A DNA stretch of 42,225 bases. It comes from a virus. A program made the translations under genes and the position numbers. Below the pieces are notes generated by a model that ran no database searches, was not told the DNA's origin, and was given only the letters and a program-made list of their open reading frames with translations. Shown here piece by piece: positions 1-42,225 of the stretch. Each line of letters starts with the position of its first letter. Position 1 is the stretch's first letter. The DNA is taken from positions 1 through 42,225 of the IMG/VR virus record IMGVR_UViG_3300012936_000042. One strand, 5' to 3'.

Positions 1-301
1 CACTAACGTAATCTTTACCCATTGCTTCAATCTTCCAGCAATAGTTACAACCAGCAGGTTGCTCGCCACGCATCATAGCGGCACGTTCTTTTTTCTTTTG
101 TGCTGTGTTGTGTATAGCACTTGGATTTTCTAGTAAGGGTGCAGTATCAATCTTATGAGGAGCAGGATGATAACAACTATGTGTTTCACCTGTTTGAAAA
201 TATATATTGGCATGATACCATTTAGCGAAGCAAAACGTAGGTGAAATCTCTTTAGTAATCTCATCTATGCGTTTAATCTCTTCGCTTTCGCTCCGCTCCA
301 T
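1..301 (-). CDS. Radical SAM (twitch-type) protein, N-terminal 100 residues; runs off the left edge
   Basis: The first 100 codons of a minus-strand gene are present; the rest lies outside the window. The start ATG (299-301) overlaps the TAA of the upstream glycosyltransferase as TAATG, so translation is probably coupled. Visible residues are C24 (FCFAKW), C43 in HSCYHP, the segment NPSAIHNT at 59-66, and C85/C88 in CNYCWKIE. This cysteine and histidine pattern matches, from memory, a family of short radical SAM proteins with a twitch domain found in marine T4-like phages, which would use an Fe-S cluster and S-adenosylmethionine. The classical CX3CX2C motif is not seen in this part, so the assignment rests on overall resemblance. 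It is the last visible gene of the operon that starts at 3781. Substrate unknown. Confidence 0.6.
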   Translation of the reverse strand, partial: MERSESEEIKRIDEITKEISPTFCFAKWYHANIYFQTGETHSCYHPAPHKIDTAPLLENPSAIHNTAQKKKERAAMMRGEQPAGCNYCWKIEAMGKDYVS

Positions 302-1224
302 TAGAGCTCTCTATCTAAAAACTGATTACTATTATCTCTTGTTGGATTTTGATAAACTGTTTTAAAAAATATACTTTGATTAGCATTTAATGGTTGTACA
401 GCAATAGGTAAAGTTAGTTCTTCCATAAGTTTTTCGCCTAGAAATGAAGTTTCAAGATCCATGCCATCTTCATCCAAATCTTTACTATCCCAATACTCAT
501 TTAAGTAATCAAAATCTCTAACATTTATAAAGTCCCAATCTGTACACATTGTTTTGTACAAACCTTCTCTCGCACCGTAGATTGCCCAACGTCCATGTTC
601 TATATCTGCACCTACCATTAGCCAAATATACAAACGGTGTAGGTTCTTCCAATGATTTCTATGGAACTGTTCTATATCAACTCTTTGTCCTTGATCTAGT
701 GCCATTTTGACACCTTCTCTAAAACCAGCTCTCCACGCTTGGTGTGTAGAAGCATTGTTGTGTATCATGCTATACGTTCCATTCATTTGAATATACTGTG
801 TATCCCAACAAAAATCTACTTGTGCATGTGGATTATCTTCTGGTGCATTTTCATGTGTACGCATGTTTAACACATGTTCTTTTGGCCAACATTTAATGCC
901 ACCATTTCCGTATGTTAATCCATTAATAATATTTTCAGCTGTCCAACTTATAACTTTATTAGACAAATCAATATGTTCGTCAAAATCGATACTTTGTTGT
1001 AAGAACTGATCTTTGATTATATTGTCACCATCAACTGTAATAAATCTATCAGTAGTTGATAAATTTGCGGCGGCCTTATGAGCACTGTCACTGCCTTTTA
1101 CTCCGTGTATACGTTCAGCCCAAGGAACTTTTTTACACAAGTCTGCATAGTTTTTATCAGCATTGGGTTCGTCATAACTAAGATAAATTATATCACAGTC
1201 TACAACTCTAAATGTATTAGCCAT
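301..1224 (-). CDS. GT-A-like glycosyltransferase (DGD motif)
   Basis: A 307-residue protein, probably cytoplasmic, with no signal peptide or membrane segment. The motif TVDGDN at residues 64-69 (DGD at 65-67) looks like the metal and nucleotide-sugar binding DxD motif of GT-A glycosyltransferases. It follows a first beta strand (DIIYLSYDEPNADKN) and a charged stretch typical of this fold. The sequence resembles, from memory, uncharacterised proteins of marine T4-like phages. It overlaps the downstream radical SAM gene by one base and the upstream 181-residue gene by 8 bases, so it belongs to the same operon. It is not a close copy of the two other glycosyltransferases here, which carry DTD. 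Sugar donor and acceptor cannot be deduced; phage fibres or host surface sugars are both possible. Confidence 0.65.
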   Translation of the reverse strand: MANTFRVVDCDIIYLSYDEPNADKNYADLCKKVPWAERIHGVKGSDSAHKAAANLSTTDRFITVDGDNIIKDQFLQQSIDFDEHIDLSNKVISWTAENIINGLTYGNGGIKCWPKEHVLNMRTHENAPEDNPHAQVDFCWDTQYIQMNGTYSMIHNNASTHQAWRAGFREGVKMALDQGQRVDIEQFHRNHWKNLHRLYIWLMVGADIEHGRWAIYGAREGLYKTMCTDWDFINVRDFDYLNEYWDSKDLDEDGMDLETSFLGEKLMEELTLPIAVQPLNANQSIFFKTVYQNPTRDNSNQFLDREL

Positions 1225-1762
1225 CTATTTCCTCATGATAGTATGTGTCAAATCTACGTACAGTATACACAGAAACTGGTGTATCGTCAAACTCAAACTT
1301 TTCTGCAAATGGTATTTCATTACCATCTGTAAACCTAATTAGTCTATATAAAATGTTTGGATCGTATTTTTTTGTAATACTAAAATAATAGTTTGAAATA
1401 TCTATAGTAATATTATTTGTTGCAAGTTGCTCTTGAAACTTTTCATCTACAGTCAATCTCCAAACATTTTGTTTTTTATCTCTAGTTATAATAAGTTGTT
1501 GTTCATCAGGCTTTTCAGTCGGCAGTTCGTATATAAACGACCACATCAACTTATCTTCATCAACTTGCTTCTGACTTTTAAGAGTGTGTTTCTTTTCAAT
1601 AAAATCGTATTCAACTTTGTGTTCTAAAATACTTTTTTTACCTTCAATAAAATCTCTTACTTCCTCAAAATCAACTTCTAAATGTTTAAATCGATCATCA
1701 GGTTGTTTAGATATTTTATATATAGAACCATTGTCCTCAAAACATACGTATCTCTTATCCAT
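1217..1762 (-). CDS. Hypothetical protein, 181 residues, between glycosyltransferase genes
   Basis: I do not recognise this protein. It is acidic to neutral, rich in aromatic residues and short beta-like segments (RYVCFEDNGSIYKI, NYYFSITKKYD, SVYTVRRFDTYY), with a charged central helix-like region (DEDKLMW). No signal peptide, membrane segment or catalytic motif is seen. Its ATG (1760-1762) directly follows the TAA of the upstream glycosyltransferase gene. An AGGA lies 7 bases before the ATG inside that gene's last codons, which supports this start. It overlaps the next gene by 8 bases. Being locked between glycosyltransferase genes it may work with them, but that is inference from position only. 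Confidence 0.75.
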   Translation of the reverse strand: MDKRYVCFEDNGSIYKISKQPDDRFKHLEVDFEEVRDFIEGKKSILEHKVEYDFIEKKHTLKSQKQVDEDKLMWSFIYELPTEKPDEQQLIITRDKKQNVWRLTVDEKFQEQLATNNITIDISNYYFSITKKYDPNILYRLIRFTDGNEIPFAEKFEFDDTPVSVYTVRRFDTYYHEEIDG

Positions 1763-2608
1763 TTATATTCCTAAATATTTTTCATACTTATTGATTATGT
1801 GTTTATTTACAAAATCTTTTTCCGTATAATGAAATATACCTGTTTGTGTATAATTTCCTATTTTTAAGTTAAGTTCATCATCAAGGTAAACACCTATCCT
1901 GTCTTGCCATCTATACTGAAAATTTTCTGTCCAGTTTTGTATTTTAGGCTTCATATGTATAAAGCTAGGATTTTTAACTTTTTTGTTAGTTATAAGATGT
2001 TCAATGTCCATTATATTTGTAGCAATAGCCGCTGATATATCCATACTTGGATGCATTGCCCATTTTTTTCCTGATGCCGCACTTTTATAAAACTGCATCC
2101 AGTTATTTGTTATCATTTCTAACCATGTGTAAAATTCATGTGCAAGATCTGTTTTCTTGAAATAATGACATCCGCTGTATAGATTAGGTAGATTATGTCT
2201 TATAAAGTTTTTTCTATAAAATGTATCATGTACTTCTTCACCTCTATAAGTAAAAACTTTACTTGTATAAAACAAATCATAGTTTCGTAAAAAATCAAAC
2301 CACTTACTAATGTCATCAAGTATAAGCATATCAGTATCAATTACCATAGTTTCATCATATGGAATAGCATGATATATTTTCCAACGATTACTTATTTTCC
2401 AGTTTTCTTCTTCTGCATGATCTCCCCAAGGTATCTCTACAATGTGATCAAAAAGATTTTTATATTTTGTAGGAACTGGATCATTAGTTATTAAACATAT
2501 ACTTACATTTTTATTTGTTGCATGAATACTCATGGCGGCTAAACAGGCTTGCCTTACATAATCAAACTCGCTGTTTTGAGCTAACATTGTAAAGTTATTG
2601 GTTGTCAA
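1763..2608 (-). CDS. Glycosyltransferase, GT8-like (DTD motif)
   Basis: A 281-residue soluble protein. The segment ETMVIDTDMLILDDI (DTD at 91-93) is the DxD motif of GT-A enzymes, where the two aspartates hold the metal and the sugar nucleotide. The N-terminus (FTMLAQNSEFDYVRQACLAAMSI, residues 6-28) looks like the first strand and helix of GT8-type proteins. It is a paralogue of the gene just upstream: both share a YV.QA helix, FDHI, a PY.ET(L/M)V(I/M)DTD block and a (K/R)KT(N/D) segment after the metal site. It overlaps the upstream gene by 14 bases. The donor sugar and acceptor are unknown. Confidence 0.65.
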   Translation of the reverse strand: MTTNNFTMLAQNSEFDYVRQACLAAMSIHATNKNVSICLITNDPVPTKYKNLFDHIVEIPWGDHAEEENWKISNRWKIYHAIPYDETMVIDTDMLILDDISKWFDFLRNYDLFYTSKVFTYRGEEVHDTFYRKNFIRHNLPNLYSGCHYFKKTDLAHEFYTWLEMITNNWMQFYKSAASGKKWAMHPSMDISAAIATNIMDIEHLITNKKVKNPSFIHMKPKIQNWTENFQYRWQDRIGVYLDDELNLKIGNYTQTGIFHYTEKDFVNKHIINKYEKYLGI

Positions 2609-3781: not shown

Positions 3782-3805
3782 AGATATCTCCTAGTGGTTT
3801 ACACT

Positions 3806-3834: not shown

Positions 3835-3835
3835 G

Positions 3836-4966: not shown

Positions 4967-4977
4967 ATGTACTCCTC

Positions 4978-5928: not shown

Positions 5929-5938
5929 AACGTTTCCT

Positions 5939-12099: not shown

Positions 12100-12108
12100 G
12101 TATTTATC
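12100..12108 (-). promoter_or_regulatory. T4-late-like promoter box before the fibre genes
   Basis: The minus-strand sequence GATAAATAC matches TATAAATA in seven of eight positions. It overlaps the TAA stop codon of the giant gene. It ends about 22 bases before the ATG of the 200-residue protein, with GGAA as the nearest ribosome binding element. Position and sequence fit a late promoter that lets fibre genes be made independently of the 13.7 kb gene upstream. Confidence 0.55.
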
Positions 12109-15100
12109 GGGGTAGCGATATTGTTTTGTCTGTTATAAACCTAGCTATTTCATTATTACTATTAGCAAGTGCTTTGCCTGTATCATTCCAAATTTTGCCT
12201 GTTTTACGTATAACTTTTACCAATGTTCCGTCTGCAGGTGGGTCAATATAATCAGCTAAATTGATTACTGTCCTTGTACTAGAACCCCAAACAATATTTT
12301 CTATTGTATATTCAGGTGCTAGTGTTACATCTGCTTCTGGTGAATCCATATCGACTGTTTTGTCAAATGTTACTACATTGTCTTTACGCAATCGTATCCC
12401 GCCAACAAATACATCTATTTCGTTTACACTAGTAGGAACAAAATCTAAAACAAATTGTTTTGTACTTGTATCACCTACAAATGTAGTTGTTGCTATTTCG
12501 TCTTTATAAGGAATAGTTTCTTCTATTCCTTGACCTTGCACTACTGTTCCAGTGGCATATTGTGCCGCTATACCAGTACCTAAAGTGCCTCTTCGTAACT
12601 GCCTTAGAAGATTTCCGTCTACTGTAAAATATTCTATGCGTTCTTTATCTATGAATACTACACCAGGTATACCTAAAGCTCTATTAGGAGTTTGAATACC
12701 TGTTGCATTCTTTAACTGTATTGAAGTATCATAATAGTTTAAAGGTTGTTGTAATTCATATTCATTATCTCTGTTAAGACGTTTATAATGATGTCTGTTT
12801 AACATATCCTTAAATATTCTGTAACCAAACTTAGGAGCAACAGGAGTTCCTGCAAACTGTAATACTTCAACTTTATCATTACTTGTTACTTTTTGTTTAA
12901 GCTGTACGCCATCGCCCGAAGTTGATAGGGTATAATCATTTTGTGATGTTAATAAATCACCATTTTTAAATACCCAAACATAGTTTGCACTAATAGCAGG
13001 TTTTTGTAACTTTATGAATCCTCTACTTAACAAGTTTTTATCTATGTATGCTTGTGTGCCAGCCGGAGCATCAGTTGTATTCCATACAATATCAAAAGCG
13101 TTTCTTTCAAACTCGTTGATATCATGATTGCTAAATGTGTAAATGTTTACTGTTTCCCAATCAGCTGGTGCATCTGTTAATGTTAGTTGCGTTGTTTCAG
13201 AAAGTGTTACGCTGGTAATCTTTGCTATAGTGCTATCATTATCAAAGTTAGCAATAATTTCAGGAGAATCATCAATACTTGCTAGTTGGAATAATTCTCT
13301 AACATAGCCACGTAACTCTATTGTAAGTGTTCCGCTTGATCTTGTAAAACTTTCAACTGTAGCAATAACTACTGTGCTATCATCAGATAATCTAAATTGT
13401 ATATCTTGTCCTTGAACAGGATCATTTACACCATCGCCATTGCCTATAATAACTGTGGTATTTAAAAAGAAATATTCTGCATCACGTATAACAAATATTT
13501 CAAATAAATCTCCTTCAGCGCCTACATTGTTGTTAAGCAGTAATACTCTACCATTTATTGTATCATATAGATAATCTTTTGTATCCATAATTTGATTATT
13601 CAAATAACATACAAAATCAGTATTTCTTAATAATCTGTAATCTTCAAACTGCCATCTATCAATATCATATGCTCTTGCTACTGTCAAAGTGTATGATTTT
13701 CTATATCCTGCATTTAAGAATCTTCCATCGCCTCTTTTTATTAAAATGTTTTGTGCAATAGGTTTTTTGATTGTAGGAAATGCAACGCTATTAATAAATT
13801 TATGTGACTTATTTGTTCCATCACATACAAAAGTATTATCAATAACCATTCGGCTAAACTTACTTACTTCACCATCGTATATTGTATAGTTTACTATATC
13901 GCCAGCGGCTCCTATAGATGGTAGTTCTAATCTAACAAATCCATTATAATCTCTGATACCAAACTCTTGTTGTGATTCTTTGTATGTGCCATTTATAGTT
14001 AAAAATGCACTAAGACCATCTTTCCATGCAATATTCAAATCATAATATGTATTGATACCATCTGCAATAAACTGATCACTATCTACAATGTTTACACCAT
14101 TAACACCTATTGTGGTAATAGACAAGTTTTTGCCTGCCGCTATAGCTGTACTATCTTCTAAACTTATTGTTTTTTCAGACCAGTTGACATTAACGTTTGC
14201 AAGATCTATAACATTGTTATCAAGTTGTATTATTAGTGTTGTGTTATCTTGAGGATAATCTTCAAAATCATATTCAATAGTTGTGCCATCAGTTATATAA
14301 TTTCTAACTGCAATAACACCTGTACCATCTGTATTTCTGTTATAAACTTGTATATCTAATGTATCTAAAACTTGTCCAGGTACTTGCTCTTCCGGTCCTT
14401 TGCTTGTTTTTTCTGTAACAAATCCATCACCGTCAACAACAATATCACTAGCACTTATACCAGATGCAGTTGTATATTCAAAGTTACCGCCTTGCAAGCT
14501 AACATCTAATGCTGTGCTTTGTGCAGAATAGCTACCGTCACTTGTAGATTTTCTTATTATTACTACATCGCCGTCTTTTGTAGTTATAACATTACTGTCT
14601 AAAAATACAGTATTAGTTATATCATCACCTTGTAAAGATACCATTTTTGCATTTGGATTAGTTACAACACTACTACCATCATATGCAGGATCATCTATTC
14701 TAACATTATTTAGATAAACGTTGTAAGTAATACCTGATTCTAATACATTTGCTAATGTTATAATTTGTGTGCTTCCATCTAATATGATAATTTCATCATC
14801 ATAGTTTGTATCAAATGTATCAAAGTTTTGTCCAAATGCTTCTGCATCAAATCCTTCGTTTTCACCAAAGCCAATGCTATCCATTTGCACGCCACCGTAA
14901 TCTACACCATCCATAAGTTGTGCAAGTTCTTTACCTGGCATATTAGTACTTGGTTTATAGAAAAAGTTTATTCTGTCAGAAGCATGTAATAGTGATGCAT
15001 CTTTTTTATACTCTATAACAACACTTGCAAAATTTGCTGGTGCATTGTTTAGTGTAATTTTACCTCTTGTTCTATCATAAGATTTTGTATTATCTAAAAC

Positions 15101-18100
15101 ATTTGTTATAGTATAATCGCTTGATAACTGAACTTCTCCTGCAACAGTAACAGTTACATCAGCACTTCTTGTGCTACTTGGCCATTTCAAACTAAATTCA
15201 GTTGCACCGCCATTACCTGTAAATGTTTCTGTTTCATCTAATGTTGTAAAATAATATGCACCTTGTATTCTATCAAACTTCATTAAAATATGCGAACTTC
15301 TAACAAGGCTGTTTCCTATTTGTGCGTATACAATAGCATCTGTTCCATCTATATCTCTATTTGAAACATCTATAGTAACAGTTGGTGTTGTAAAATATTT
15401 TGCGCCAACAGTATCAACTTCAATATAAGTTATGCTACCGCCGCCAATGTATGCTTTACCAGTTAATGTTGGGCCTCCGCCTCCACTGACTGTAACAACC
15501 GCAGTGTAGTTAAATCCAGAGCCGCCATCGTATATTACAAAATCAGTTATTTCAAAACCGTTGTTCTCTAACCAATGCTTTTGTGGATAAGTTGATGTTG
15601 TGTCATTTATACCTGTTATTTGATTGTTAAAAAACTTTATAGTTTCGCTTATAATCTTACCTTCGTTAGCATCATATCTAGGAGGTAAATCAAAATCAGT
15701 AACACTTGTTTGCGTTGGTTCTAGTTTACCATATGAACTTATGTATTCTCTTACCTTTGTGCTATAAGGTTTTACTTCGTTCACATAGTCTTGATAGTTA
15801 GGTAAGTTATCATTTTGGTATGTAATTTTTTGTTCTAACTCGCCAACGTTATGTTTAGCAACTACAAAACTTGATTTGAAAATCCAATCCAAGTCAACTT
15901 GTTCGCTCATTGCATAACGAATACTTGCAAAGAATAGTTTGTTCCATTCACCTTCTAGTTGGTCAACAAATATATTTTCAATAATAGTTTTTAATATAAT
16001 TTTTATTTCTTCTGTTGGTTCTCTATCATATAATGCCGCATCGTAAATAGAAGCATCAAATCCTACAGTTTTATTTTGATATAATATACTATCAAATGCA
16101 AGAGTTCCGTTTTGACGTCCTATAACTTTGTAGTTGACTGTATAATCTACTTCTGGTTGATTATCAATCTTTTCAAGTAACAGCCAACCGCCAGAACCAA
16201 TAGTTTCTATTTTTACAGTGTTTCCTATTCTATCTTGCAAAGCAGATAATGCATAACTGCCAGGCACTACAAAATCAATACGTGTAAGTGCGTCATATCC
16301 TATAGCGTACCAATCTTTATAACTCCAATATAAATTTACATCGTAATCTTGTACATAAGCTCTAAACCATTCTTGAGTACTTTCTAACCAGTTGTACACT
16401 GCCCAAAATCCGCCTATATCAGAATCGTTTGCAACTAATACACTAAATGGACGGACTATAAGAACAGTATCATCTAAATAGTTTTCACCACCGTTGATTA
16501 TTTCTACACTTGTTACTTGTCCTAAGTTGTTTACAAAAGTTTTAAGTTCAGCACCTGTACCGTTGCCTTCAATAGTGACAGTAGGTCCTTGTCTAATATC
16601 ACCGCTTGTATAGTTGCTATCAATATAACCTCTACCTTTTTCTGTTATAGATACGGCTGTAATAACACCATCAACAATAGTTGGAGTTAGCTTTGCTTGC
16701 TTTACTTTTGCTGTACCTACAAATCTTAATAAATTTTCGCTTTCAATCCTTGTATCGTATCTTCTGCTAAACTTACTTGGTTCAGGATCAACTTGTAGTA
16801 ATGGACTGATATCAAAATCATCTACAATAGTGTATTGACACAAAACACCATTTACTCTTTCAATAACTTGTTTTAATGCTTCTTCTCTGTTTACAAACAT
16901 TGCTTGATTAGGTGTGTTTAAAATACCATATCTATATGCTAAACTTACATCAATATCAGGTAATGGTATATTACGAGAATCATATCCAGCAAGGCTGTCT
17001 ATCCATTTACTTTGTATATCAGCATTTGGTTTGCTTGTTGGTAAACCTTCAACTAAAAGTTCGTACTCGTGATGTATGTTTCTATCTATTGCATTATCTT
17101 GCACATAATAATCAATATGTAAAATAGTATCTGTATCTTTTACAAGATTTTTTATATTATGCAATGCTAGTTTTTTATCATCTAACATTGCAACAAATCT
17201 ATAACCCTGTCCTGCAGGATCTGCAATCAAGTTTGCAACATCTAAACTTGTCAACTTTCTACCGTATGTATCTGGTAATGTTGTTTTACTTTTTACCCAG
17301 TAATAATATACAGGAATAAAAGTGCTAGATACAGCATCATATTTTTTAGACACAACATATCTGTCATCACTATATAAAGATAAGCCACTTATACCATCAG
17401 CTAATCCTTCTGTAGTATCAGCAATATTATCCCATTCACTAGGTGTTAAAGAGCTCTCTACCCATTCATATACATCAACACTAAAACCAGGAATAATTTG
17501 ATTCCAAGTGTTTGATTTAAACTGAATATTTCCTTGATAAGGATTATACCATTTTACTGCTGATAAATCCCACCATAGTTTTCCTACGTTCTGGCTACCC
17601 CAAAGATCTTTGCTTCCTGTTCCTGTAGTGCCTACGTTATATACAGCAGGATCGTAATATAACTTATAATGTAGTTCTTGTTCAGCAGGTCCTGGTATTC
17701 TTCCTTTAATAGGATCAATGTAATCTAAATATGTAATAAGATCTTTTGTTGTATTATCGTATAACCACACGCCTTTAATTTTATCTGTGTTAATATTATT
17801 TTCACCTTGACTGTTTATAGTCCATGCGTTTGCATTTATATCTGCTCTATAATCTACAACAAAACCGTTATTTGTATCAGTTTCTTGTGCAGGTGCTACT
17901 ACATAAAGATGATTTCTTTTTAACACTGAATAAGGATTTCTTGATCCTTTTACATCTTGCACTGTATAAAGTTTTTCAGCATACACAAGTTTTGTTGCTA
18001 ATGTTTCATACACATATACTTGTGCATTATCTATTACTGAATCTATTATATCAGTTGCTTTGTTATCTAACGAAGTTGTATCTCCGTCAAAAGTTGTAAA

Positions 18101-21100
18101 TGCTCTTGTATCTCCGTTTATACTAGACACTGCAAGTTTTTCTGCATCAAAATCTACACGAACTCCAAAGCCAGCATTTCTTTCTCCGTCTGGTGATAAT
18201 AGTGTTTGCTCTAAAGCAAAGGTTCCTGCTGTTGATTTATAAACATATACAGCACCGTTTGCTATTCCGTTAATATCTGATCCACGTGCGCCTATAGCTA
18301 TCTTAGAGCCATCGCTGTTTAGTGATATGCTTGTGCCAAATACTTCGCCATCAACAGGCGAATCAATATTTTGATCAAACACAAATCTATTTTGTACTTT
18401 TCTATATATTGCTATACGTCTTTCATTGAAAGAAACACCTAATGCAGATGCATCCGGATCAAAACCTGGATCGTCAGGAAGATTAAACAAACCAGTTATA
18501 GCAAGAACTTCTCCGTTACTGCTTATATCAAAGTTGCTACCAATATTTGATATTAAATCAAATCCAAAGTTACTGCTATCTTCATCTAACAAATCGCTTG
18601 CATCATCTAATAATGGAGGAACAAAGCCTGCATAGTCAACATATGTACTTAAAACATTCCACTGACTTGAATCAAACGAAGCACCTGCAAACACAGTTGT
18701 ATTTGCTTGATACAGTACTCCTTGATAAAATACTATTTCGTTTTCAATATATTTTGCTATCTCTTGGAACTCACCTTTATACGAAGTATCTTTACTGTAT
18801 TCGTAAGAAGCAACATCGTTTTGTCCTTTGTTATTTAGAAGGTATATTCTTCCATTATAACCAGTGCCTCTTACAAAAAGATTATAGTTGAAATCGCTCG
18901 GAGATACTGATTTTATTGCAATACCAAACTGTTCACCTGCCTTAGGAGCAGAACTCATTATTACATCTTGTAATAAGAAACTCTGATCTATAAGTCTTTT
19001 ATAAACATAGATTACACCTTGGTTTGCATATCCTAAACTACTTCCAGATGGATCAGCTTTTAAGACGTCTGCTATTTCCCAATCTTCGCTATCTAAATTT
19101 ATTGTACTGCTTTCTACAGTGACATCATTTGATGCAGTCCACAGAGTACTTTTTGAACTTACTACATCTCCTGCAATATATGCCTGTGATGGATCTAAGG
19201 CGCCTTTGAAACGTGTTTTAACGTTACTCGCGGCTGGAGCACCAACATACAAATATTGTCCATCATCTGTAATAGAAACAGATGTACCAAATTCCCCTCC
19301 ACTATGATGAGTAGCTAATGGTTCTAATGTTTGTTTTAATGTATAATCTAATGCTTCGCTACTTCTTGTGTAAACATAAACTCTACCATCATCTTTATCA
19401 GGTGTACCTACAACCATTGTTGTGTTGTTAGCACTTACATCAAATGATTTACCAAAATCATAACTTACAGTTTCTGGATTTATAACTTTTTGTTTAAATG
19501 AACGTATAACATTGCTATCGTAAACTCCAAACTTAGAGCCTATGTCATCTACCCACATTCTGTCTTTTAGATCTAAATCATATTGTTTTGTTATTGTGTT
19601 TATATCTTCTGGTGTTGAAACTCTTCTAGATGACAATATTGAAACTATACCTAATGTACTATCTTCTAAATCAATAAAATCAGTACCTATTTCATTATCT
19701 GTAACAATCTCAATACTAGGTTTTAACACTGTAGAATCGCTTGCAATGATTTCATTTTGATTAACGTTTGTAGCTACCCAGAATCCATTTACTTCTACAT
19801 CTATATTATTGAAACCAATAAAATCGCCTTCTGCTAAAGTAATAGGTCTATCAAAGTTTGCCTTAAATCCTAATGCAGTTTTTTCAATACTAATAATACG
19901 CATAGGTGCGACTATGTGTTTATAAACATTCCATGATTGTCCGTCTGCTGTTACCCATATATAACTACCAATATCAACACTTGCAATATCTAAGACTAAC
20001 ATATCATTTACATTTTTAGCCATAAAATCAACTTGGTCAAGTTTGACATAGCCAGCAGTTTTTGAATATTCTTTAGATAATGATTCAGTTGGTAATGATG
20101 AATGTGCGTATCCATCTGGTTCTAAATATACATCTTTTTTAGGAAACTGATAAACTAAATCTGTTCTAGTGTCGTCAACAGTGTTTACAAACTCTACAAG
20201 TTGAGGTTCAATTCTAAACTTGCTTTCATCTAAAATATATTCTACTTCATCAAAACTTGTTGTAGCACCATAACGTCCTACACGCACTGCCCATTCTTCA
20301 TACAGTTCTAAACTATCTTTATCATTTGCACCAAGTTTATCAAATAGTTTTGTTATAGAATTTGAAGTTCCTTTGTCTTGTATAAATCCTTGATAAAACT
20401 TATACTGACTTATATCGTCATTAATAATGTTAGCAAGATATTGCCTTTTTTGATAACCAATTAAATGCTGAGCTAATCTTTGCTGTTCTGTATCAAAGTT
20501 GTCAGTGTCTAAATCGTAGAAATCAGCAAACTGATTTGCTTTATAATCCCAGTTTGGCACAAGTTTACTATCTGGACGTTCAGTTAGTCTACTCCAGTTA
20601 CCATCTTTAAATGTTTCAGTGCCACTATGTGTAAAACGTGCCGCATAATAAAACTCTTTATATTTTACAAGTTCTGCTGTTTTGTAATCTTTATAACTTT
20701 CCCAATCAGTTACTTTTGCATTATCATAGGTAAATCCTGGTATATTTAAACTACCATTCCAGTCATCTGTTCTATACCCTACAACTTTTAATCTTTCTTG
20801 TCTATATCCTGTTTCAGGTGCGTATATTGTGTCATTAAAAACAGTTGTATTGTCTATGAGTACAACATGCTCTCTTTGTACTAAAGGCAAGTTTACAAAA
20901 TATATTCCATCTTCTGATTGAAGTGTAAAAACATTACCGTTATCTCTATATATGTTACTCACAGCTTTTTTAAGAATATTGCTGTTTTTATCTAACACTG
21001 CAAAGTCATATAAATTTTCATATATGTTGTCAACTGTAAAAAACTTTTGTTCAAACATTATTTTATTTGCACCAGGGCTTAAAGTAAGTGTGCTAGAACT

Positions 21101-25825: not shown

Positions 25826-28800
25826 TAGTAGCTATTTCCTTCTATGACAGTTGTATTTGATGTTGTTGTGCTTTGTATTCCAGTGTTAGGAACATCATCA
25901 CTTGTTATTACTTTTCCTGATGCTTTTAATCTTGAAGCTGTAATACTATCTATTACTTCAACTTCACCAACCTGTGCTGAACTAACAAATATTTCGTCAT
26001 TTTCGCTTTTGATTTCATATAAGCTACCAAAACTTTGTGTTTCAGTTTTTGGAACTAACACAATACTGCTAATGTCAGGTGCAACTTGTTTCATAATATA
26101 AGCCGCTAGTTCGCTGAAATAAAATGTTTCGCCAAAATCCCAGTTTTCAAGTGCAAAAAATTCATTAATACTATCAATAACTCTTGACTTTATATCATTA
26201 TCATTTACAACTCTAGAAGCATTTTTAACGATTTTAATCGTAGCTTGTAAATCATTATCAGCATACGCACCAAACAATGGCTTATACTTAACAGGATGAT
26301 ATATAACTTCATCACTAATAGATTTTATTGCTTTGATAGATTGTCCGTAATCTAAAAATAGTGCATCACTGCTAGGTGGCAATGGTTGTACTGTAATATC
26401 ACCCTTGAGCCATTTTCTATATTCAATGTCATAGGTTTTTGTAAGAAGATATAGATCAATAATATTACTGCTACTAGGATCTATTCGTCTATTTTCAGCC
26501 GCGGCGTGTCTATAATCAAATCTAATCTTATCACGCCCTTTATATGCTTTATAATTTGTATTCAAAACTAATGCAGTTTTTGTGCTATTCAAAGATTTAA
26601 ACTTATTAGTGCTACTAATGTAAAATACGCAATCGCTATCATAGGCGCTATATGCTCCTATTGCGGCTTCTGTATTCTTTACTTCTATTTTTTCAGCATC
26701 TGCTTCAACATATTCATATGTTACTGTGTTGCTTCTAGTAAACTTTTTTGCAAAAATATATTTGGTATCTGGTAAGTAATCCGGATCAACAATCTGTGTG
26801 AACAAATCAGGATCATCTATAACACCATCGTTATCTACATCAGTAAAACTTATTTCAAGTTTTTTACTATCTACATATCCTTCTGATGTTCTATATTCAG
26901 AAACAACTTGCCATTGCCAATCTTTCTGAAATGGTGTTAATGTATCAGGCTTATTATTGTTGCTTAAAACGCCTATTGTGTCTGTAACAATCTTTCCTGT
27001 TTTACTATCGTATATTCTATCATTTCCATCAAAGTAAAAACGTATTTGTTTATCACTTTCAAATACATATCTTACTGCACGATAAGTGACTGTATATGTT
27101 TCGCCATCAGTTTCAAATAAGAAAATCCAACTTGCGTCTTGATTTGTTCCTGTTACATCGCCTGTTTTTGCAGTATCAAAATTATTAACTTTATCTAAGT
27201 TACTATTAAGTATTACTTTCCAGTCTGTTGTTTCAACATCGTATCGTAAACCAAATGTTCTGTACGCAAAAACTTGATCAACCATTTGTGATAAAGTATC
27301 ATTGACAATGTTATTATTCAAAACAGGAATAATTTCACACAAATAAGCTGTGCTTGGAATATTGTCATTAAAAACTATTGGACCTAACGTGCTTCCAACT
27401 TCTGCTGTAGTACCGTCTTCGTATATACTAATAACTTTAGTCCAAATATACTCTTTGTCACCTAGTGCTGATGGTGTTCCAGTTTTTATTGTGTTATCTT
27501 TATCAAAATATTTTCCTGTTGGTGCTTTAAATTTTACTAAACTGCCTGCTGTCATAAAACGCAATGCTGTAGCTGTAAACGTTCCAACAGCAATAGCAAT
27601 ATCAAACTGGTCTTGTAATATACCTGTGCTTTGATTTGTATCATTTGTTGTGGCTACCCATTCATAATTTAAATCCGCAACACTTGTATTTCTATCAAAG
27701 TTTTTGTAGTAAAAGTTTTTGGTTTGTATTCCTTTAATAACTTCTAAAACTTGTGAATTTATTACTGCTTCAATATCAGTCTTACTTGAAAAAGAAAAAC
27801 TAAACTTACCTAGTAAATCTTCTGTAAAAACACTACCGTCATCTCCAAACATAAGTGTATTGCTGTACTTTCCAGTGCTATCACGTAAATCATAATACCT
27901 ACTAATACCACTACTTGTTCTATTGACGCTTTTTGTTTTTATAATTTGTTGATTTACACCAAGTGGACCAATGTTATAATCTTCACCTGTTATAAGTCTG
28001 TTTTGTGTATAATATGTACTAGGTGCATTTGTTTGAATGCTTTCGTTTGATTCTGCACTATCTGCATTAGATACTATACTTGTAAGTTCCAATATAAGAT
28101 TTAGTGTTTCTAATGTATTATTTTTACTAATATATGGTATAGATATGCTTATGCCTTGCATGTCTGCTGGCTTGATGCTGTATTGTTCATTGGCACTTAC
28201 TCTATAATAAACTTTAAAGTCTCCTTTTGGAAGAGTGCCAAAAGTACCGTCACTAAAAATCAAACTTATTCTATCATTTACTCTGCTTAACACACTATAA
28301 ATGTCTGTTATACCTTTAGAAACGTTATTGTAAACAATATTATTGCCTTCTGTGCTGTTAACCGAAGTCCACAATGCTTCTTCGTTACCATTGCTATCTA
28401 GTTTATACAACCAAACATCTGTATTGTTAATATTATCACTATCAATGTTTACAGTTGTATTTGGAACAGGATTAGCAACACTAAATGTGTTGTTCTCTAA
28501 TGTACCTTGTCTAAAATGAAAGAAAAATCCACTATTTGAACTACCTGCACCTTGTCCATTGTCTCTATATAAAAACGCTAATCTATTTCCTGGATAAGGT
28601 TCTTCTTCAAATATTGTATTGTTTTCAATATTAATACCTGTACTCACTATTTCAAATTTACGTGATGCATCGTCTATAGACTTAGTAAAAGAATAGATAG
28701 GAACATCTTGATTATTACCATTAAATCTATACTGTTCAGTGGTGATACCATCTACAGTTGCTTTCTTTACAGGTCTACCAAATATGTTGTTAGCAGGTAA

Positions 28801-29289
28801 AGCCGCATTTAATATTTTTATAAACTGTTCATACCAATCTGTATTAGTTGCATCATTCCAAATAATAGTTTGATTGCTTAGATTGTTATTATTTGCATCT
28901 ACAACATCTTCTGTAGTGCTTATACTTTCTATTTTTAATAATCCGTTACCTGCAATATTTCTATTAGCGTTGTAACTTATTAATCTAGCTAAACGGAGTA
29001 TGCTTTCTCTACGTTCTGCTGTTTCAATATAGTTTTCTCTAGCATTTAAGTCTGTACGGAAGGCAAGATTTTGACCTAAAAATGCAATAAGATCTATTAG
29101 TGCAAGGTATTCACTTGACTCAATATAATCATTAAAGTCTTCTGGATAGTTCTCCCTAATGTATGTAATCATTGTTCTACGTAAATTATCAAAATCATAA
29201 CTTTGAAAATCAGCGTATCTAAAACTTTGATAGATTGTCTTCCAGTCTTCTGCTAAAAGTAATCTATTTTGCCTATCCGTTGTTGACAT
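25825..29289 (-). CDS. gp6: Baseplate wedge protein gp6
   Basis: A 1154-residue protein, longer than T4 gp6 (660 residues). The first 130 residues are characteristic of the gp6 (gpJ-like) family: LLLAEDWKTIYQSFRYADFQ, DFDNLRRTMITYIRENYPED, SSEYLALIDLIAFLGQNLAF, and RENYIETAERRESILRLARL. In T4, gp6 dimers form the inner ring that ties the six wedges together around the hub. Later parts are beta-rich. The C-terminal domain (DIKSRVIDSINEFFALENWD, FYFSELAAYIMKQVAPDI) resembles the J-like region that closes the ring. It follows gp25 after 52 bases and is coupled to the giant gene. GAGG 8-11 bases before the ATG supports the start. Confidence 0.92.
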   Translation of the reverse strand: MSTTDRQNRLLLAEDWKTIYQSFRYADFQSYDFDNLRRTMITYIRENYPEDFNDYIESSEYLALIDLIAFLGQNLAFRTDLNARENYIETAERRESILRLARLISYNANRNIAGNGLLKIESISTTEDVVDANNNNLSNQTIIWNDATNTDWYEQFIKILNAALPANNIFGRPVKKATVDGITTEQYRFNGNNQDVPIYSFTKSIDDASRKFEIVSTGINIENNTIFEEEPYPGNRLAFLYRDNGQGAGSSNSGFFFHFRQGTLENNTFSVANPVPNTTVNIDSDNINNTDVWLYKLDSNGNEEALWTSVNSTEGNNIVYNNVSKGITDIYSVLSRVNDRISLIFSDGTFGTLPKGDFKVYYRVSANEQYSIKPADMQGISISIPYISKNNTLETLNLILELTSIVSNADSAESNESIQTNAPSTYYTQNRLITGEDYNIGPLGVNQQIIKTKSVNRTSSGISRYYDLRDSTGKYSNTLMFGDDGSVFTEDLLGKFSFSFSSKTDIEAVINSQVLEVIKGIQTKNFYYKNFDRNTSVADLNYEWVATTNDTNQSTGILQDQFDIAIAVGTFTATALRFMTAGSLVKFKAPTGKYFDKDNTIKTGTPSALGDKEYIWTKVISIYEDGTTAEVGSTLGPIVFNDNIPSTAYLCEIIPVLNNNIVNDTLSQMVDQVFAYRTFGLRYDVETTDWKVILNSNLDKVNNFDTAKTGDVTGTNQDASWIFLFETDGETYTVTYRAVRYVFESDKQIRFYFDGNDRIYDSKTGKIVTDTIGVLSNNNKPDTLTPFQKDWQWQVVSEYRTSEGYVDSKKLEISFTDVDNDGVIDDPDLFTQIVDPDYLPDTKYIFAKKFTRSNTVTYEYVEADAEKIEVKNTEAAIGAYSAYDSDCVFYISSTNKFKSLNSTKTALVLNTNYKAYKGRDKIRFDYRHAAAENRRIDPSSSNIIDLYLLTKTYDIEYRKWLKGDITVQPLPPSSDALFLDYGQSIKAIKSISDEVIYHPVKYKPLFGAYADNDLQATIKIVKNASRVVNDNDIKSRVIDSINEFFALENWDFGETFYFSELAAYIMKQVAPDISSIVLVPKTETQSFGSLYEIKSENDEIFVSSAQVGEVEVIDSITASRLKASGKVITSDDVPNTGIQSTTTSNTTVIEGNSY

Positions 29290-36083: not shown

Positions 36084-36104
36084 AGTGTAAAGGATATAGA
36101 AAAA

Positions 36105-36932
36105 ATGGCCAGAAAAATAAATTATCTCAATAACAAAGACATGTTATTAGAGATCCACAAATCAAAAAATACATTTTGTAGTTACGTAGCACCAGAATTT
36201 GCAGATTATGACATTATTCTACCTAGTGTAGACAAAATAAATGTTAGAACAGTAGCAGAAGCAAAGCGTAACAAAGCGAAAAAACAAGGACAACGTGCAT
36301 ACGAAGCCGCTAAAGCCGACGGTAGGAAGGTTAAAATGGCAGAGTTTGAAGTTGATTATAGAAAAATAGAGAAAACTGACTTAGTATTCCGTATAATGAC
36401 ATTTGATCATGTACCAGACGAACCAGGACGTAAAAAGAATCCTAAAACTGTTGCAGATGAAAAAACAAAACTTAACTTTCCTCCCTTTCAACACTATAAG
36501 TTTGATGAAAACGACAATGTTATTTGTGTAGGCAAAAGTCATTGGGAAGGTGGAATGGAAAACGGTTACTTTAACAAAGGACACGGACAAGCAACAAATA
36601 AACTTGCAAGTATGTGGATGAAACTTTGTGATAGGTATGCTACACGTGGTAATGTTCGTGGATATACATACAATGATGAAATGCGAGGACAAGCAATACT
36701 ACAGTTAGCACAAATAGGTTTACAGTTCGACGAATCAAAGTCACAAAACCCATTTGCATACTACACAGCGGCAGTAACAAACAGCTTTGTACGTGTTATT
36801 AACATAGAGAAACGTAATCAAAACATAAGAGATGATATCTTAGAGATGAATAACATGGATCCTTCGCATACAAGACAACATGCAGGCGAATGGGAAGCCG
36901 CTCAACGTAGAGAAGGCCTAAAAACAGGTTGA
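36105..36932 (+). CDS. gp55: Late-transcription sigma factor gp55, with large internal insertion
   Basis: A 275-residue protein; T4 gp55 has 185. The N-terminus NYLNNKDMLLEIHKSK (6-20) matches the T4 start (YVNNKELLQAI). Residues ~164-245 form the sigma-like core that binds core polymerase and the late box: NKLASMWMKLCDRYATRGNV, RGYTYNDEMRGQAILQLAQI, GLQFDESKSQNPFAYYTAAV, then SFVRVINIEKRNQNIRDD. Residues ~22-160 are an insertion absent from T4 (DYDIILPSVDKINVRTVAEA, a Lys/Ala-rich helix, FEVDYRKI, GRKKNPKT, NFPPFQHYKF). The C-terminus (EWEAAQRREGLKTG) lacks the hydrophobic sliding-clamp-binding tail of T4 gp55. It should switch polymerase to the TATAAATA-type promoters of the tail genes. Confidence 0.88.
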   Translation: MARKINYLNNKDMLLEIHKSKNTFCSYVAPEFADYDIILPSVDKINVRTVAEAKRNKAKKQGQRAYEAAKADGRKVKMAEFEVDYRKIEKTDLVFRIMTFDHVPDEPGRKKNPKTVADEKTKLNFPPFQHYKFDENDNVICVGKSHWEGGMENGYFNKGHGQATNKLASMWMKLCDRYATRGNVRGYTYNDEMRGQAILQLAQIGLQFDESKSQNPFAYYTAAVTNSFVRVINIEKRNQNIRDDILEMNNMDPSHTRQHAGEWEAAQRREGLKTG

Positions 36933-36957: not shown

Positions 36958-36966
36958 AGCAACGAA

Positions 36967-36982
36967 GTGGAGATTCTTATTG
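36967..36982 (+). promoter_or_regulatory. Ribosome binding site that fixes the TTG start of gp47
   Basis: GTGGAG (36967-36972) stands 7 bases before TTG (36980-36982). The first in-frame ATG is codon 15, which would remove the metal-binding D10 and H12 of the phosphoesterase. The TTG is therefore the likely true start, a rare start codon in this window. Confidence 0.75.
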
Positions 36983-37993
36983 TTTAAAAAAGCGGCGGTG
37001 TTTACCGATATCCATTTGGGTATGAAGGGTAACTCACGAGTACATAATCAAGACTGTGAAAACTATATCGACTGGTATATTGACACAGCAAAAGCCAATG
37101 GTTGCGAAACTGGACTGTTCTGCGGGGACTGGCACCATAATAGGAACAGTTTAAACCTTACAACCATGAATACAACCATTAAGTTGTTAGAGAAACTAGG
37201 TCAATCGTTTGAAAAGTTCTATATGTTTGCAGGTAATCACGACTTGTACTACAAAGACAAGCGTGATGTAAGCTCAACTGAGTTTGCAAGACACATTCCA
37301 GGTATAACTGTAGTTGATCAAATGCAAGTAGATGACGATGTAGCACTAGTTCCGTGGTTAGTGGGCGATGAATGGCGACAGATGGAGAAGTTAAAAGCAA
37401 AGTACTTGTTTGGACACTTCGAACTACCTAGCTTCTATATGAATGCTATGGTACAGATGCCTGATCACGGTGAACTTAAAGCGGAACACTTCAAGAACCA
37501 AGAGTATGTGTTTAGTGGACACTTTCATAAACGTCAGAAGCAAGGCAAGGTACACTATATTGGTAATGCTTTCCCACATAACTATGCTGATGCGTGGGAT
37601 GATGACCGTGGTATGATGATACTAGACCGTGAGAACAATGCAGAACCAGAGTATATCAACTGGCCAGACTGTCCTAAGTATAGAACAGTGAAGTTATCAA
37701 AGCTGATTGATGAGAAAGACACATTGATCAAGCCAAGTATGTACCTAAGAGTTACACTAGACATTGATATTAGCTATGAAGAAGCAAGTTATATCAAAGA
37801 AACATTTATGGATCAGTATGAATGTAGAGAGATCACGCTCATACCGCAAAAGTCTATAGAAGAGATTAACACAGACTTAGACATTGAACAGTTTGAAAGT
37901 GTTGATCAGATAGTTAGCAAAGAAATACAAGCTATTGACAGTGAACAGTTTAACAAGAAACTACTTTTGGACATATATACAGAGCTCGCATGA
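36980..37993 (+). CDS. gp47: Recombination endonuclease subunit gp47 (Mre11-like)
   Basis: A 337-residue calcineurin-type phosphoesterase, equal in length to T4 gp47 (339). Metal-binding motifs are all visible: D10 and H12 in FTDIHLG, D50 and H53 in CGDWHHNR, N86 and H87 in AGNHD, H146 in FGHFE and H181/H183 in SGHFHKRQ. With gp46 it forms the Mre11-Rad50-type complex that processes DNA ends for recombination-dependent replication and degrades host DNA. The C-terminal part (SVDQIVSKEIQAIDSEQFNK) would bind gp46. Translation starts at TTG. The stop overlaps the gp46 start as ATGA, so the pair is coupled. Confidence 0.93.
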   Translation: MFKKAAVFTDIHLGMKGNSRVHNQDCENYIDWYIDTAKANGCETGLFCGDWHHNRNSLNLTTMNTTIKLLEKLGQSFEKFYMFAGNHDLYYKDKRDVSSTEFARHIPGITVVDQMQVDDDVALVPWLVGDEWRQMEKLKAKYLFGHFELPSFYMNAMVQMPDHGELKAEHFKNQEYVFSGHFHKRQKQGKVHYIGNAFPHNYADAWDDDRGMMILDRENNAEPEYINWPDCPKYRTVKLSKLIDEKDTLIKPSMYLRVTLDIDISYEEASYIKETFMDQYECREITLIPQKSIEEINTDLDIEQFESVDQIVSKEIQAIDSEQFNKKLLLDIYTELA

Positions 37994-39768
37994 TAAAAAT
38001 ACAAGATTTAACAGTTAAAAACTTTATGAGTGTGGGTAACGTTACCCAAGCAGTTGACTTCAACAAGGAGCAACTCACTCTAGTGCTTGGTGAAAACTTA
38101 GACCAAGGAGGTGACGACACCGGATCTCGAAACGGTACTGGTAAAACTACGATAATAAATGCATTATCATATGCCATGTACGGCCAAGCACTAACAAATA
38201 TCAAGAGAAACAACTTGATTAACAAAACTAACAGTAAAGGTATGTTAGTTACACTAAACTTTGAGAAAGACGGCAATCAATATCGTATTGAACGTGGTAG
38301 ATCACCTAATGTATTAAAGTTTTACATTAATAATCACGAACAACAAGACGATATGCATGATGAATCACAAGGTGACAGTAGAAAAACACAAGAAGATATT
38401 AATCATCTATTGGATATGACTCACGATATGTTCAAACACGTAGTTGCATTGAACACATACACAGAACCATTCCTAAGTATGCGGGCAAATGATCAACGTG
38501 CTATCATTGAACAGCTACTCGGTATAACTATCCTTACTGAAAAAGCAGAAATACTCAAAGAAAAGGTTAAAACTACAAAAGAACTTATTACTGAAGAAAC
38601 ATTAAAGATAAATGCTATCGAAACAAGCAATAAAAAGATCGAACAAAGCATAGAAACACTTGCTGGTAGACAAAGAGCTTGGAAAGCTAAACAAAAACAA
38701 GATATTGAGCGTCTTGACAGCGGTATTGAAGAGTTAGAAAAGTTAAACATTAATGCAGAACTTGATTCACATGAAAAATTAACTAACTGGACAGAAACAA
38801 ACAACCGTTTGACTAGTTTAAACAAAGAAAAAGCAACACTTGAAGCGGCATTAATGCGAGCAACTAAAAGTGTTGACAAAGCGGCACAAGATGTAAAGGA
38901 TCTTGACGATGCTATTTGTTATACTTGCGGACAAGCGTTACATGCAGATAAAAAAGAAGAAATATCAGTTCGAAAAAACAAAGAACTTACCGATGCAATG
39001 GGTTATCAAACAGAAGTTGCTGGAAAATTAGAAAAAACAATGTCATTGCTAAATGATATTGGTGATATCAACGGTCGTCCTACTACTTTTTATGAAACTG
39101 CAAAAGAAGCATACGAACATAGAAACAATGTAGATAATCTTAAGAATAGTTTGATAAGTAAAACACAAGAAGAAGATCCTTATCAAGCTCAGATTGATGA
39201 TTTAACTGATACTGCATTACAAGAAATAAATTGGCAACCAGTTAATGACCTAACTAGTTTGAAAGACCATCAAGAGTTTTTATTAAAACTTTTGACAAAC
39301 AAAGACTCGTTCATACGTAAAAAGATCATTGATCAAAACTTAGCGTATCTGAACAATAGGCTCACATATTATTTAGACAAACTAGGCTTACCACATCAAG
39401 TAGAGTTTCAAAACGATTTGTCAGTTGAGATTACTCAGCTGGGACAAGATCTCGACTTTGATAACTTATCAAGAGGCGAACGTAACAGGCTAATACTAGG
39501 CATGAGTTGGGCATTTAGAGATGTTTGGGAATCATTATACCAAGGCGTCAACTTATTGTTCATTGACGAACTTATTGATAGCGGAATGGACACTGCTGGC
39601 GTTGAAAGTGCGTTAGCTGTATTGAAAAAGATGGGTAGAGAACGTAGTAAAAATGTTTTTCTTATATCTCACAAGGACGAACTAGTTGGTAGAGTGAATC
39701 ATGTTATGAAAGTCGTAAAAGAAAATGGCTTTACATCATATGAAAACGATATCGATATTATAGAATGA
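37990..39768 (+). CDS. gp46: Recombination endonuclease subunit gp46 (Rad50-like ATPase)
   Basis: A 592-residue SMC/Rad50-type ATPase (T4 gp46 is 560). Walker A is GSRNGTGKTT at 45-54, followed by INALSYAMYGQ. Long coiled coils flank a zinc-hook CYTC at about 310-313, where two Rad50 arms join through one zinc ion. The ABC signature is LSRGERNRLILGMSW near 492, and Walker B is LLFIDELIDSGMD near 522-534. A histidine switch (FLISHKDEL) lies near 558. With gp47 it forms the DNA-end processing nuclease. It overlaps gp47 by 4 bases and the next small gene by 4 bases. Confidence 0.94.
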   Translation: MIKIQDLTVKNFMSVGNVTQAVDFNKEQLTLVLGENLDQGGDDTGSRNGTGKTTIINALSYAMYGQALTNIKRNNLINKTNSKGMLVTLNFEKDGNQYRIERGRSPNVLKFYINNHEQQDDMHDESQGDSRKTQEDINHLLDMTHDMFKHVVALNTYTEPFLSMRANDQRAIIEQLLGITILTEKAEILKEKVKTTKELITEETLKINAIETSNKKIEQSIETLAGRQRAWKAKQKQDIERLDSGIEELEKLNINAELDSHEKLTNWTETNNRLTSLNKEKATLEAALMRATKSVDKAAQDVKDLDDAICYTCGQALHADKKEEISVRKNKELTDAMGYQTEVAGKLEKTMSLLNDIGDINGRPTTFYETAKEAYEHRNNVDNLKNSLISKTQEEDPYQAQIDDLTDTALQEINWQPVNDLTSLKDHQEFLLKLLTNKDSFIRKKIIDQNLAYLNNRLTYYLDKLGLPHQVEFQNDLSVEITQLGQDLDFDNLSRGERNRLILGMSWAFRDVWESLYQGVNLLFIDELIDSGMDTAGVESALAVLKKMGRERSKNVFLISHKDELVGRVNHVMKVVKENGFTSYENDIDIIE

Positions 39769-41662: not shown

Positions 41663-41667
41663 AGCCT
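41655..41667 (+). other. Hairpin at the halogenase stop codon
   Basis: AGGCTT-A-AAGCCT is a perfect 6-base inverted repeat around a single base; the TAA stop (41660-41662) lies in its centre. The loop is too tight for all pairs to form, so a 5-pair stem is more realistic. No T-run follows, so it is not a standard terminator. Confidence 0.5.
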
Positions 41668-41671
41668 ACTA

Positions 41672-41688
41672 GCATAAACACTTTATGC
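41672..41688 (+). promoter_or_regulatory. Hairpin enclosing the start codon of the GIY-YIG gene
   Basis: GCATAAA-CAC-TTTATGC is a perfect 7-base inverted repeat with a 3-base loop. The ATG start codon (41685-41687) lies inside the 3' arm, and no clear Shine-Dalgarno sequence precedes it. In read-through mRNA the start would be paired. T4 uses similar hairpins to silence genes such as soc and 49 on early transcripts, so this may be a translational switch. Confidence 0.5.
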
Positions 41689-42110
41689 ATTGGACGTACA
41701 AAGGTAAAAAAATAAACGAAGTACCAGATGAATACGAAGGCTTTGTATATCTAATAACAAACAAAAAGACAAAACAAAAATACGTAGGCAAAAAGTTAGC
41801 AAAATTTAAAACAACCAAGCCACCATTAAAAGGCAAAAAAAACAAACGCAGAGGTCATAAAGAAAGTGACTGGCGTGAATACTGGGGAAGTTCAGATAGA
41901 CTGAACGAAGATGTAAAAAACTTAGGCGAAAAAAACTTTACTCGTGAAATACTTTACTTCTGCAAAAGCAGAGCTGAAATGAGTTACATTGAAGCACGAG
42001 AACAGTTTGATAGGCGAGTCTTAGAGACAGACGAATACTACAACGGAATCATCAATGTTAGAGTTGGTGGATCAAATAAACTACGTCAGGCACTACTAGA
42101 ACACAAATAG
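41685..42110 (+). CDS. GIY-YIG-type nuclease-like protein
   Basis: A 141-residue basic protein. GFVYLITNKKTKQKYVGKK at residues 19-37 gives the two short strands of the GIY-YIG fold (here VYL and YVG). ESDWREYWGSS at 60-70 and REILYFCKSRAEMSYIEARE at about 108-127 follow, with the last Glu region in the place of the catalytic glutamate. Lys/Arg clusters (KGKKNKRRGHKESD) suggest DNA binding. Such stand-alone proteins are frequent in T4-like phages, often annotated as Seg-like homing endonucleases. The canonical catalytic Arg is not obvious to me. It starts 22 bases after the halogenase stop within a hairpin. Confidence 0.7.
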   Translation: MHWTYKGKKINEVPDEYEGFVYLITNKKTKQKYVGKKLAKFKTTKPPLKGKKNKRRGHKESDWREYWGSSDRLNEDVKNLGEKNFTREILYFCKSRAEMSYIEAREQFDRRVLETDEYYNGIINVRVGGSNKLRQALLEHK

Positions 42111-42225
42111 GCTATATAACGAGCTCTAAATCAAATCCAAGATCCAGCCGAGGTAATGCTCGTCGCCGGTGGTGTGGTATGCTCGCGTGAAGAAACATAC
42201 GATAGGTTTTAAAGGATTGTGGCTC
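42111..42225 (+). other. Unassigned right end of the window, higher G+C
   Basis: After the stop of the GIY-YIG gene I find no supported gene. Positions ~42145-42190 are clearly richer in G+C than the rest of the window, and TGCTCG occurs twice in similar surroundings (GGTAATGCTCG and GGTATGCTCG). A short frame beginning at ATGCTCGTCGCC encodes only 18 residues. The next gene or an RNA element may begin here, but the window ends. Confidence 0.3.

Follow-up and report, generated by a model that had tools for sequence, protein, structure and literature searches.

Selection against GCWGC in a 42-kb viral contig and change of missing words among related jumbo phages

Gene content of the contig

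The stretch of DNA analysed here, called the window, is the whole of IMG/VR record IMGVR_UViG_3300012936_000042 (42,225 bases), which is, by its gene content, a marine fragment of a T4-like virus from a jumbo-phage group. The word GCWGC (W is A or T) is wholly absent from it, as the original prediction had claimed: exact counting gave 0 GCAGC and 0 GCTGC. The features referred to below are given with their positions in the window, strand, description and source of the assignment.

1..42225, no strand: GCWGC-free sequence (0 GCAGC, 0 GCTGC), word count
12104..25825, minus strand: giant protein of 4573 amino acids, part of a conserved block, with 0 GCWGC over 13.7 kb, open reading frame (ORF)
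25825..29289, minus strand: baseplate wedge protein (phylogenetic marker), PHROG 10646, E 3.7e-296
26498..26505, no strand: example of GCSGC (S is G or C), GCCGC at 26498 and GCGGC at 26501, sequence
36105..36932, plus strand: late sigma factor (gp55-like), PHROG 12791, E 7.6e-76
36980..37993, plus strand: SbcD-like nuclease subunit (gp47-like), PHROG 100, E 1.4e-71
37990..39768, plus strand: SbcC-like subunit (gp46-like), PHROG 77, E 3.6e-100
41685..42110, plus strand: SegE-like GIY-YIG endonuclease, Pfam PF19835, E 2e-33

Further genes encode a hub lysozyme, tail fibre-like proteins and a tryptophan halogenase, and the conserved block (giant protein, gp6-like wedge, hub lysozyme, gp55, gp47, gp46) is present. 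Homologues of the wedge protein and of the late sigma factor, together with the gp46/47 block as in the window, are found in the cultured jumbo phages RaK2, Munch, CBB, Atu_ph07, SCTP-2, PA5oct and Phosso; these differ in hosts and in words, and among the matches listed the two proteins are about 33-46% identical to their window counterparts. For the late sigma factor, the top cultured matches were jumbo phages of the PA5oct kind, followed by Phosso and Atu_ph07 (identity at most 46%). For the wedge protein, 61 records matched, every one below 60% identity, with Phosso, SCTP-2 and Atu_ph07 on top. The gene order of the wedge neighbourhood is common to Phosso and Atu_ph07, and both carry a comparably large gene, annotated as structural, at the place of the giant protein gene. 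A near-DNA search and one tblastn search of phage records gave no match. The window record has 42,225 bases; the longest contigs among its relatives measure 275 kb (IMG/VR) and 335 kb (in a metagenome-assembled genome, MAG).

GCWGC counts against null models

The number of GCWGC sites expected in the window was 24.5 from base composition, 43.8 under a dinucleotide model and 44.0 under a maximal-order Markov model. Codon shuffles keeping all proteins (n = 500; synonymous, within a purpose-made 25-ORF model covering 98.2% of the window) gave 46.3 ± 3.5 sites with a range of 36-61, so that keeping the proteins never brought the count near zero. The earlier estimate of about 20 sites by chance is close to the composition value and lies below the Markov and shuffle values. 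A scan of 1,808 degenerate palindromes and 2,528 plain words, each expected at least 5 times, returned GCWGC as the sole word absent at p < 1e-4. The Poisson p of AATT (120 sites, 317 expected) was below that of GCWGC, yet its depletion is partial.

The G/C-centred form is in excess, with 23 GCGGC and 31 GCCGC (54 in total) against 12.9 expected from composition or 11 from dinucleotides, which bears out the earlier figure of more than 40 against about 10. Alanine pairs avoid GCWGC as had been proposed: the 45 Ala codons that precede Ala are GCG (28) or GCC (17) and no other, whereas those preceding other residues are GCA (458), GCT (254), GCC (41) and GCG (40), GCA and GCT making up 712 of the 793. 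The Ala-Ala examples named at the outset were recovered, the words starting at 4701, 11650, 26498/26501, 30162/30165, 36768, 38881 and 40400.

Fate of GCWGC at homologous positions

Positions of the window were compared with 18 contigs of relatives, whose proteins are on average 72-79% identical to those of the window; 146 unique positions were aligned to GCWGC in at least one of these contigs. GCWGC is kept in the window at none of the 146, whereas retention at homologous positions is 10-37% for seven control words with a one-letter difference (63-90% lost) and 9% for GCSGC (11/116; 91% lost).

The route of escape was read at 44 positions with the same amino acids, using the first aligned relative for each position. 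In frame 0 (Ala-Ala pairs), all 21 synonymous escapes put G or C in place of A or T at the wobble base of Ala; in frame 1, 13 of 16 were wobble-only changes of C to T or A, the other 3 being Ser codon-box switches; in frame 2, 6 of 7 were wobble-only changes of G to A or T. The frame-0 escapes oppose mutational decay, because A/T to G/C runs against the AT-rich bias. The codon shuffles, the 146 losses out of 146, the frame-dependent escapes and the recurrence in separate lineages described below show that there is selection in the window against the exact word GCWGC, specific to its W centre.

Recurrence of the loss in separate lineages

Relatives were taken as the best 80 IMG/VR loci with a wedge homologue, of at least 595 confirmed among at least 597 pattern matches. 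GCWGC is held by 78 of these 80 loci and is absent from L001 and L065; in L007 and L056-L059 it is present and under expectation. Examination of related phages, which had been suggested as a check, thus confines the loss to some lineages, the nearest other relatives of the window being mostly at or near expectation. L001 is the window's sister strain (99.5% identity over 16.4 kb), an independent contig with 0 GCWGC. L065 is 97% identical to the 43.7-kb contig G041, which is syntenic with the window at about 63% wedge identity and has 0 GCWGC where 36-47 are expected. The sister strain and the divergent G041 both come from metagenome 3300020446. A deep clade is likewise free of the word, with 0 of 164-195 expected sites in the 199.1 kb of G069, and 0/44, 0/37 and 0/39 (observed/expected) in G070, G071 and G072.

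Of 119 wedge sequences, 55 remained once near-duplicates (98.5% alike or more) had been removed, and a tree of these was built by a quick search, with long outgroup branches flagged. Six taxa are GCWGC-free, 47 are not and 2 were unscored, which requires at least 3 changes of state, a count that cannot separate gain from loss. By their placement in this tree the purges of the window and of G041 are independent, because both are nested among GCWGC-keeping phages; on the simplest count, the deep clade would be a third purge. A 335-kb phage contig (G080 contig 57, L486-L502), found in the bin of a Red Sea MAG of Neomarinimicrobiota, has 35 GCWGC of 410 expected, this being its most depleted word. 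A tree including it (FastTree, without the six longest outgroups) gave at least 4 changes, and placed its long branch next to the deep clade, so that the two may have one origin. A 153-kb contig is 99.9% identical to this large jumbo-phage contig over the 23 kb compared.

GCSGC stands at 4.0-5.5 times the dinucleotide expectation in all 8 GCWGC-free or depleted contigs, and at 0.9-2.7 times in the GCWGC-bearing contigs other than three relatives of the window considered below.

Other words missing from relatives

Relatives with 60-86% wedge identity lack different words. ACWGT is absent from G019 (0/142 in 97.8 kb; L087-L091), and GTWAC is nearly so in G015 and G016 (4/59 and 2/47; L123-L126); the S-centred forms are abundant in these contigs. 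CATG is absent from whole contigs with 0/141 (56 kb), 0/135 (55 kb), 0/90 and 0/61, and from a 137-kb contig with 0/373; GTAC stands at 0/207 in an 80-kb contig and at 0/100-108, 1/81 and 0/56-59 in whole contigs. TTTAAA is absent from one whole contig (0/18), AATT is reduced to 2/232 in G020 and AGCT to 32/256 in G043 (L312-L317, 113 kb). The AGCT sites remaining in G043 are clustered, only 6 of the 32 lying within the first 75 kb, with a cluster at 75-100 kb and 12 sites at 95-100 kb; such leftovers may be recent gene gains that are still unpurged. The 15-kb L382 lacks both AGCT (0/23) and GCWGC, a possible double purge. Of the marine contigs from which any word is absent, most lack exactly one.

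At least one of 12 words is at 9% of expectation or less in 30 of the 55 dereplicated taxa, a descriptive fraction, 11 of the 12 words having been chosen after their depletion was seen. The change of words on the tree is directly visible and takes place over short distances, because TTTAAA-free phages are interspersed with GTAC-free ones.

Words are also absent from 9 of the 12 stretches of cultured phages scanned. CCWGG stands at 0/169 in 440 kb of SCTP-2 and at 3/301-322 in 445 of the 490 kb of Atu_ph07. GCGC is absent from all seven stretches of RaK2 (0/122 in 345 kb; L086) and of K64-1, Munch, CBB, BF, XaC1 and Kae01 (40 kb each; L322-L327). Further words are missing from K64-1, Munch, Kae01, CBB and BF, among them CCWGG and GGWCC in both Munch and Kae01; GAYRTC is absent from BF and nearly so from CBB. 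GCGC is thus missing from the enterobacterial relatives, some of which are devoid of CCWGG, GGWCC or CCWWGG as well; we take all of these words to be sites of enterobacterial enzymes. No comparably strong missing word was found in the stretches scanned of Phosso (45 of 469 kb), Vibrio 2.275.O and PA5oct (125 of 287 kb). Enzymes cutting at the words concerned include HhaI (GCGC), RsaI (GTAC), NlaIII (CATG), MluCI (AATT), AluI (AGCT), DraI (TTTAAA), EcoRII (CCWGG), AvaII (GGWCC) and StyI (CCWWGG).

AATT in the window and its near relatives

AATT is at 0.38 of expectation in the window and at 0.17-0.28 in seven near relatives' contigs, a difference due in part to the AATT-rich right end, which has apparently been swapped (see the last section). 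Excluding that segment, the window has 2.6 AATT per kb against 1.25-2.1 in the relatives. Of the 116 alignable AATT sites of the window, 94 are common to no relative. A simple reading is that, in the window, AATT is now under weaker selection and GCWGC under newer pressure.

Search for a nuclease or methyltransferase

ORFs were scanned with Pfam and PADLOC for 119 of 126 clusters (24 contigs including the window) and for 173 of the 203 ORFs of G069, and with PADLOC only for 288 of the 357 ORFs of the 335-kb contig; in five batch scans, the families considered were the first 25 of 55, 77, 35, 32 and 29 listed. Among these families, no convincing site-specific restriction enzyme was found in the 119 clusters, 173 ORFs and 288 ORFs. 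The 335-kb contig gave weak PADLOC matches to REase_II, Type IV, Type IIG and Type I models, and G069 one weak MTase_II match (1.5e-4).

The SegE-like GIY-YIG protein was rejected as the agent, being 92-99% identical across phages that lack GCWGC, ACWGT, GTAC, CATG or TTTAAA. The protein matching the REase_II model was rejected as well: present in 6 of 33 records, it does not track the missing words, occurring in Phosso and PA5oct (no comparable purge in the parts scanned) and being absent from G041 and G069-G072. Its PtuB co-matches suggest that it is probably an HNH nuclease. GIY-YIG family PF01541 gave a single match in 8 records, on a different contig of the MAG.

The C5-methyltransferase family PF00145 matched none of 40 relatives' records; in a further set it matched 3 of 30, all cultured (RaK2, K64-1, CBB), and 0 of the 18 marine ones. 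PF01555 and PF02086 each matched 1 of 40 records, the sole match being Atu_ph07. A DNA methyltransferase as cause or shield was therefore rejected, the three families being above cut-off in cultured relatives only; some cultured jumbo phages thus encode DNA methyltransferases, unlike the marine contigs searched. PF01555 was not found in the Neomarinimicrobiota MAG, and one of the C5-methyltransferases of the MAG adjoins, by eye, an apparent small-terminase gene. G069 (L457-L466) encodes GTP cyclohydrolase I, 6-pyruvoyl tetrahydropterin synthase and radical SAM proteins, a set that could represent a 7-deazaguanine pathway.

Probable cause of the purge

We consider it probable that the window lost GCWGC under pressure from a restriction endonuclease of the Type II kind, or a site-specific nuclease equivalent to one, in the bacteria that the phage enters. 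A site-specific nuclease is suggested because the missing words are short palindromes, some of them centred on W or N, and because the enterobacterial relatives lack the sites of enterobacterial enzymes; the words missing from relatives are presumably, for the most part, Type II sites. The original prediction of strong selection against GCWGC as a restriction or other nuclease site in hosts or competitors is supported and gives the best reading at hand: the selection is shown, and the nuclease is what we infer, as are its ownership by the host and host shifts as the driver of word change.

Under such a mechanism, a host enzyme would cut unmodified GCWGC on phage entry, and each site lost would lift survival of entry by about an equal factor, so that selection could reach zero sites. 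Sites would be removed by whichever synonymous change the codon frame permits. A shift in host range would end selection on the old word and lead to the purging of a new one. The window may illustrate this, its clade depleting AATT about four- to six-fold and the window being less AATT-depleted, with GCWGC lost instead.

Several observations weigh against this explanation. No host yielded a GCWGC nuclease or methyltransferase; the lead examined was the MAG, whose three C5-methyltransferase matches lie on other contigs (8, 5 and 61 kb) and provide no host link. The metagenome shared by the sister strain and G041 is a single coincidence and no test, and metagenome 3300035145 has relatives lacking GTAC, CATG and TTTAAA. 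The turnover of new AATT sites in the window does not exceed that of control words. GCSGC also reaches 3.6-4.3 times expectation in three relatives of the window that bear GCWGC; its excess is an incomplete sign of the escape route and no proof, compensation being only partly specific. Finally, the marine contigs that lack a word mostly lack just one.

This last point would also be explained if the phage itself encoded a GCWGC-specific nuclease directed against host or rival DNA, being immune through lack of sites, with lineages differing in specificity. In favour of this are the completeness of the purge, usually of one word per marine contig, and the failure to find a cognate methyltransferase in the marine contigs; most genomes are incomplete, so that such a gene could be missed. 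We nevertheless regard a phage nuclease as unlikely, considering the near identity of SegE among phages lacking different words, the 173 of 203 G069 ORFs yielding no restriction enzyme among the families listed, the REase_II-model protein that does not follow the missing words, and the joint absence of several words in Munch and Kae01. Still somewhat less likely is a version in which each jumbo phage carries one exchangeable, unrecognised site-specific nuclease for use against host or rival DNA and is protected by zero sites, not by a methyltransferase, a swap of the nuclease forcing a new purge of the whole genome.

A host system other than classical Type II could also read GCWGC (Type IIG/IIS, modification-dependent or another sequence-specific defence). 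The word alone cannot reveal the enzyme class, and GCWGC is among the Type IIM sites in the accessible text of PMC6286503; the strict W centre and the symmetry of most missing words are in keeping with classical Type II enzymes, and we find this variant improbable.

Mutational erosion without selection, by GCWGC methylation followed by deamination or by another bias, is very improbable. GCWGC methyltransferases of the m5C and m4C types exist, as the available portions of PMC8936443 and PMC6329791 indicate, and the escapes in frames 1 and 2 are mostly deamination-like (C to T, G to A). Erosion through methylation should give C to T or G to A in every frame, whereas all 21 frame-0 escapes run from A/T to G/C at the centre; moreover, AATT, which has no C, was lost likewise in G020 (2/232), and no C5 methyltransferase was found in the marine contigs searched. 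An effect of composition, codon use or assembly is hardly credible, nothing having been found in its favour and it being opposed by the 36-61 sites of the codon shuffles, the mostly expected GCWGC numbers in relatives of similar GC content, the zero count in the sister strain's independent contig and the continuous 199-kb contig that has none where about 1 site per kb is expected.

Relation to known systems

ApeKI, named in the original prediction, is an enzyme of GCWGC specificity. GCWGC enzymes exist in aquatic bacteria, because M.AbaBS3I, a GCWGC-specific methyltransferase of freshwater Chloroflexi from a lake, is reported in the available portion of PMC6329791, where TseI is also named for this word. 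M.AbaBS3I, TseI and ApeKI share their recognition word with the one missing from the window, and no link between the bacteria concerned and these phages was tested or found.

Purging of restriction sites is an established escape route of phages (PMC6286503, with a review in PMC12707154, in the excerpts available). Short palindromic sites are depleted in those studies as here, and their depletion is read there as escape from host restriction-modification; in the accessible text of PMC6286503, GCWGC is surveyed in prokaryotic viruses and has a contrast below 1 in 66.3% of genomes. The present case differs in that the word is absent over 42-199 kb, that relatives purge other words and that separate lineages purge the same one. 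The strategy is thus known, and its interesting part here is the complete loss in jumbo phages together with the turnover of words. The literature searched gave no account of jumbo phages that lose words completely and switch between them, subscription papers being mostly outside that search. Judged by title and beginning of abstract, no methylation or restriction paper was found for the strings ACWGT and GTWAC, and none on DNA methylation or restriction among the matches listed for GCWGC in seawater. The RaK2 paper discusses methylation and restriction analysis, and the string GCGC does not occur in its accessible part.

A purged word may tell which enzymes, and perhaps which hosts, a phage has faced, which offers a testable route for linking uncultured jumbo phages to hosts. 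ACWGT and GTWAC may be unreported restriction specificities, and their existence is predicted on this basis. Complete absence of sites is attainable in 200-440 kb of phage DNA, and clustered leftover sites, such as AGCT in G043, may flag recent gene gains.

The halogenase segment at the right end

Over positions 39,922-41,921, which include the halogenase gene, the window and its sister strain (G001) differ at 451 of 1,991 aligned bases, or about 23%, the aligned flanks being at least 99% identical; the segment is probably a swapped cassette. Between the two strains, 3.18 GCWGC gains were expected and 0 seen, a comparison that was not used as evidence because 451 of the 539 differences fall in this one segment. 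AATT density is 5.9 per kb at the halogenase end, against 2.6 per kb elsewhere in the window, and GCWGC is absent from both versions of the segment.

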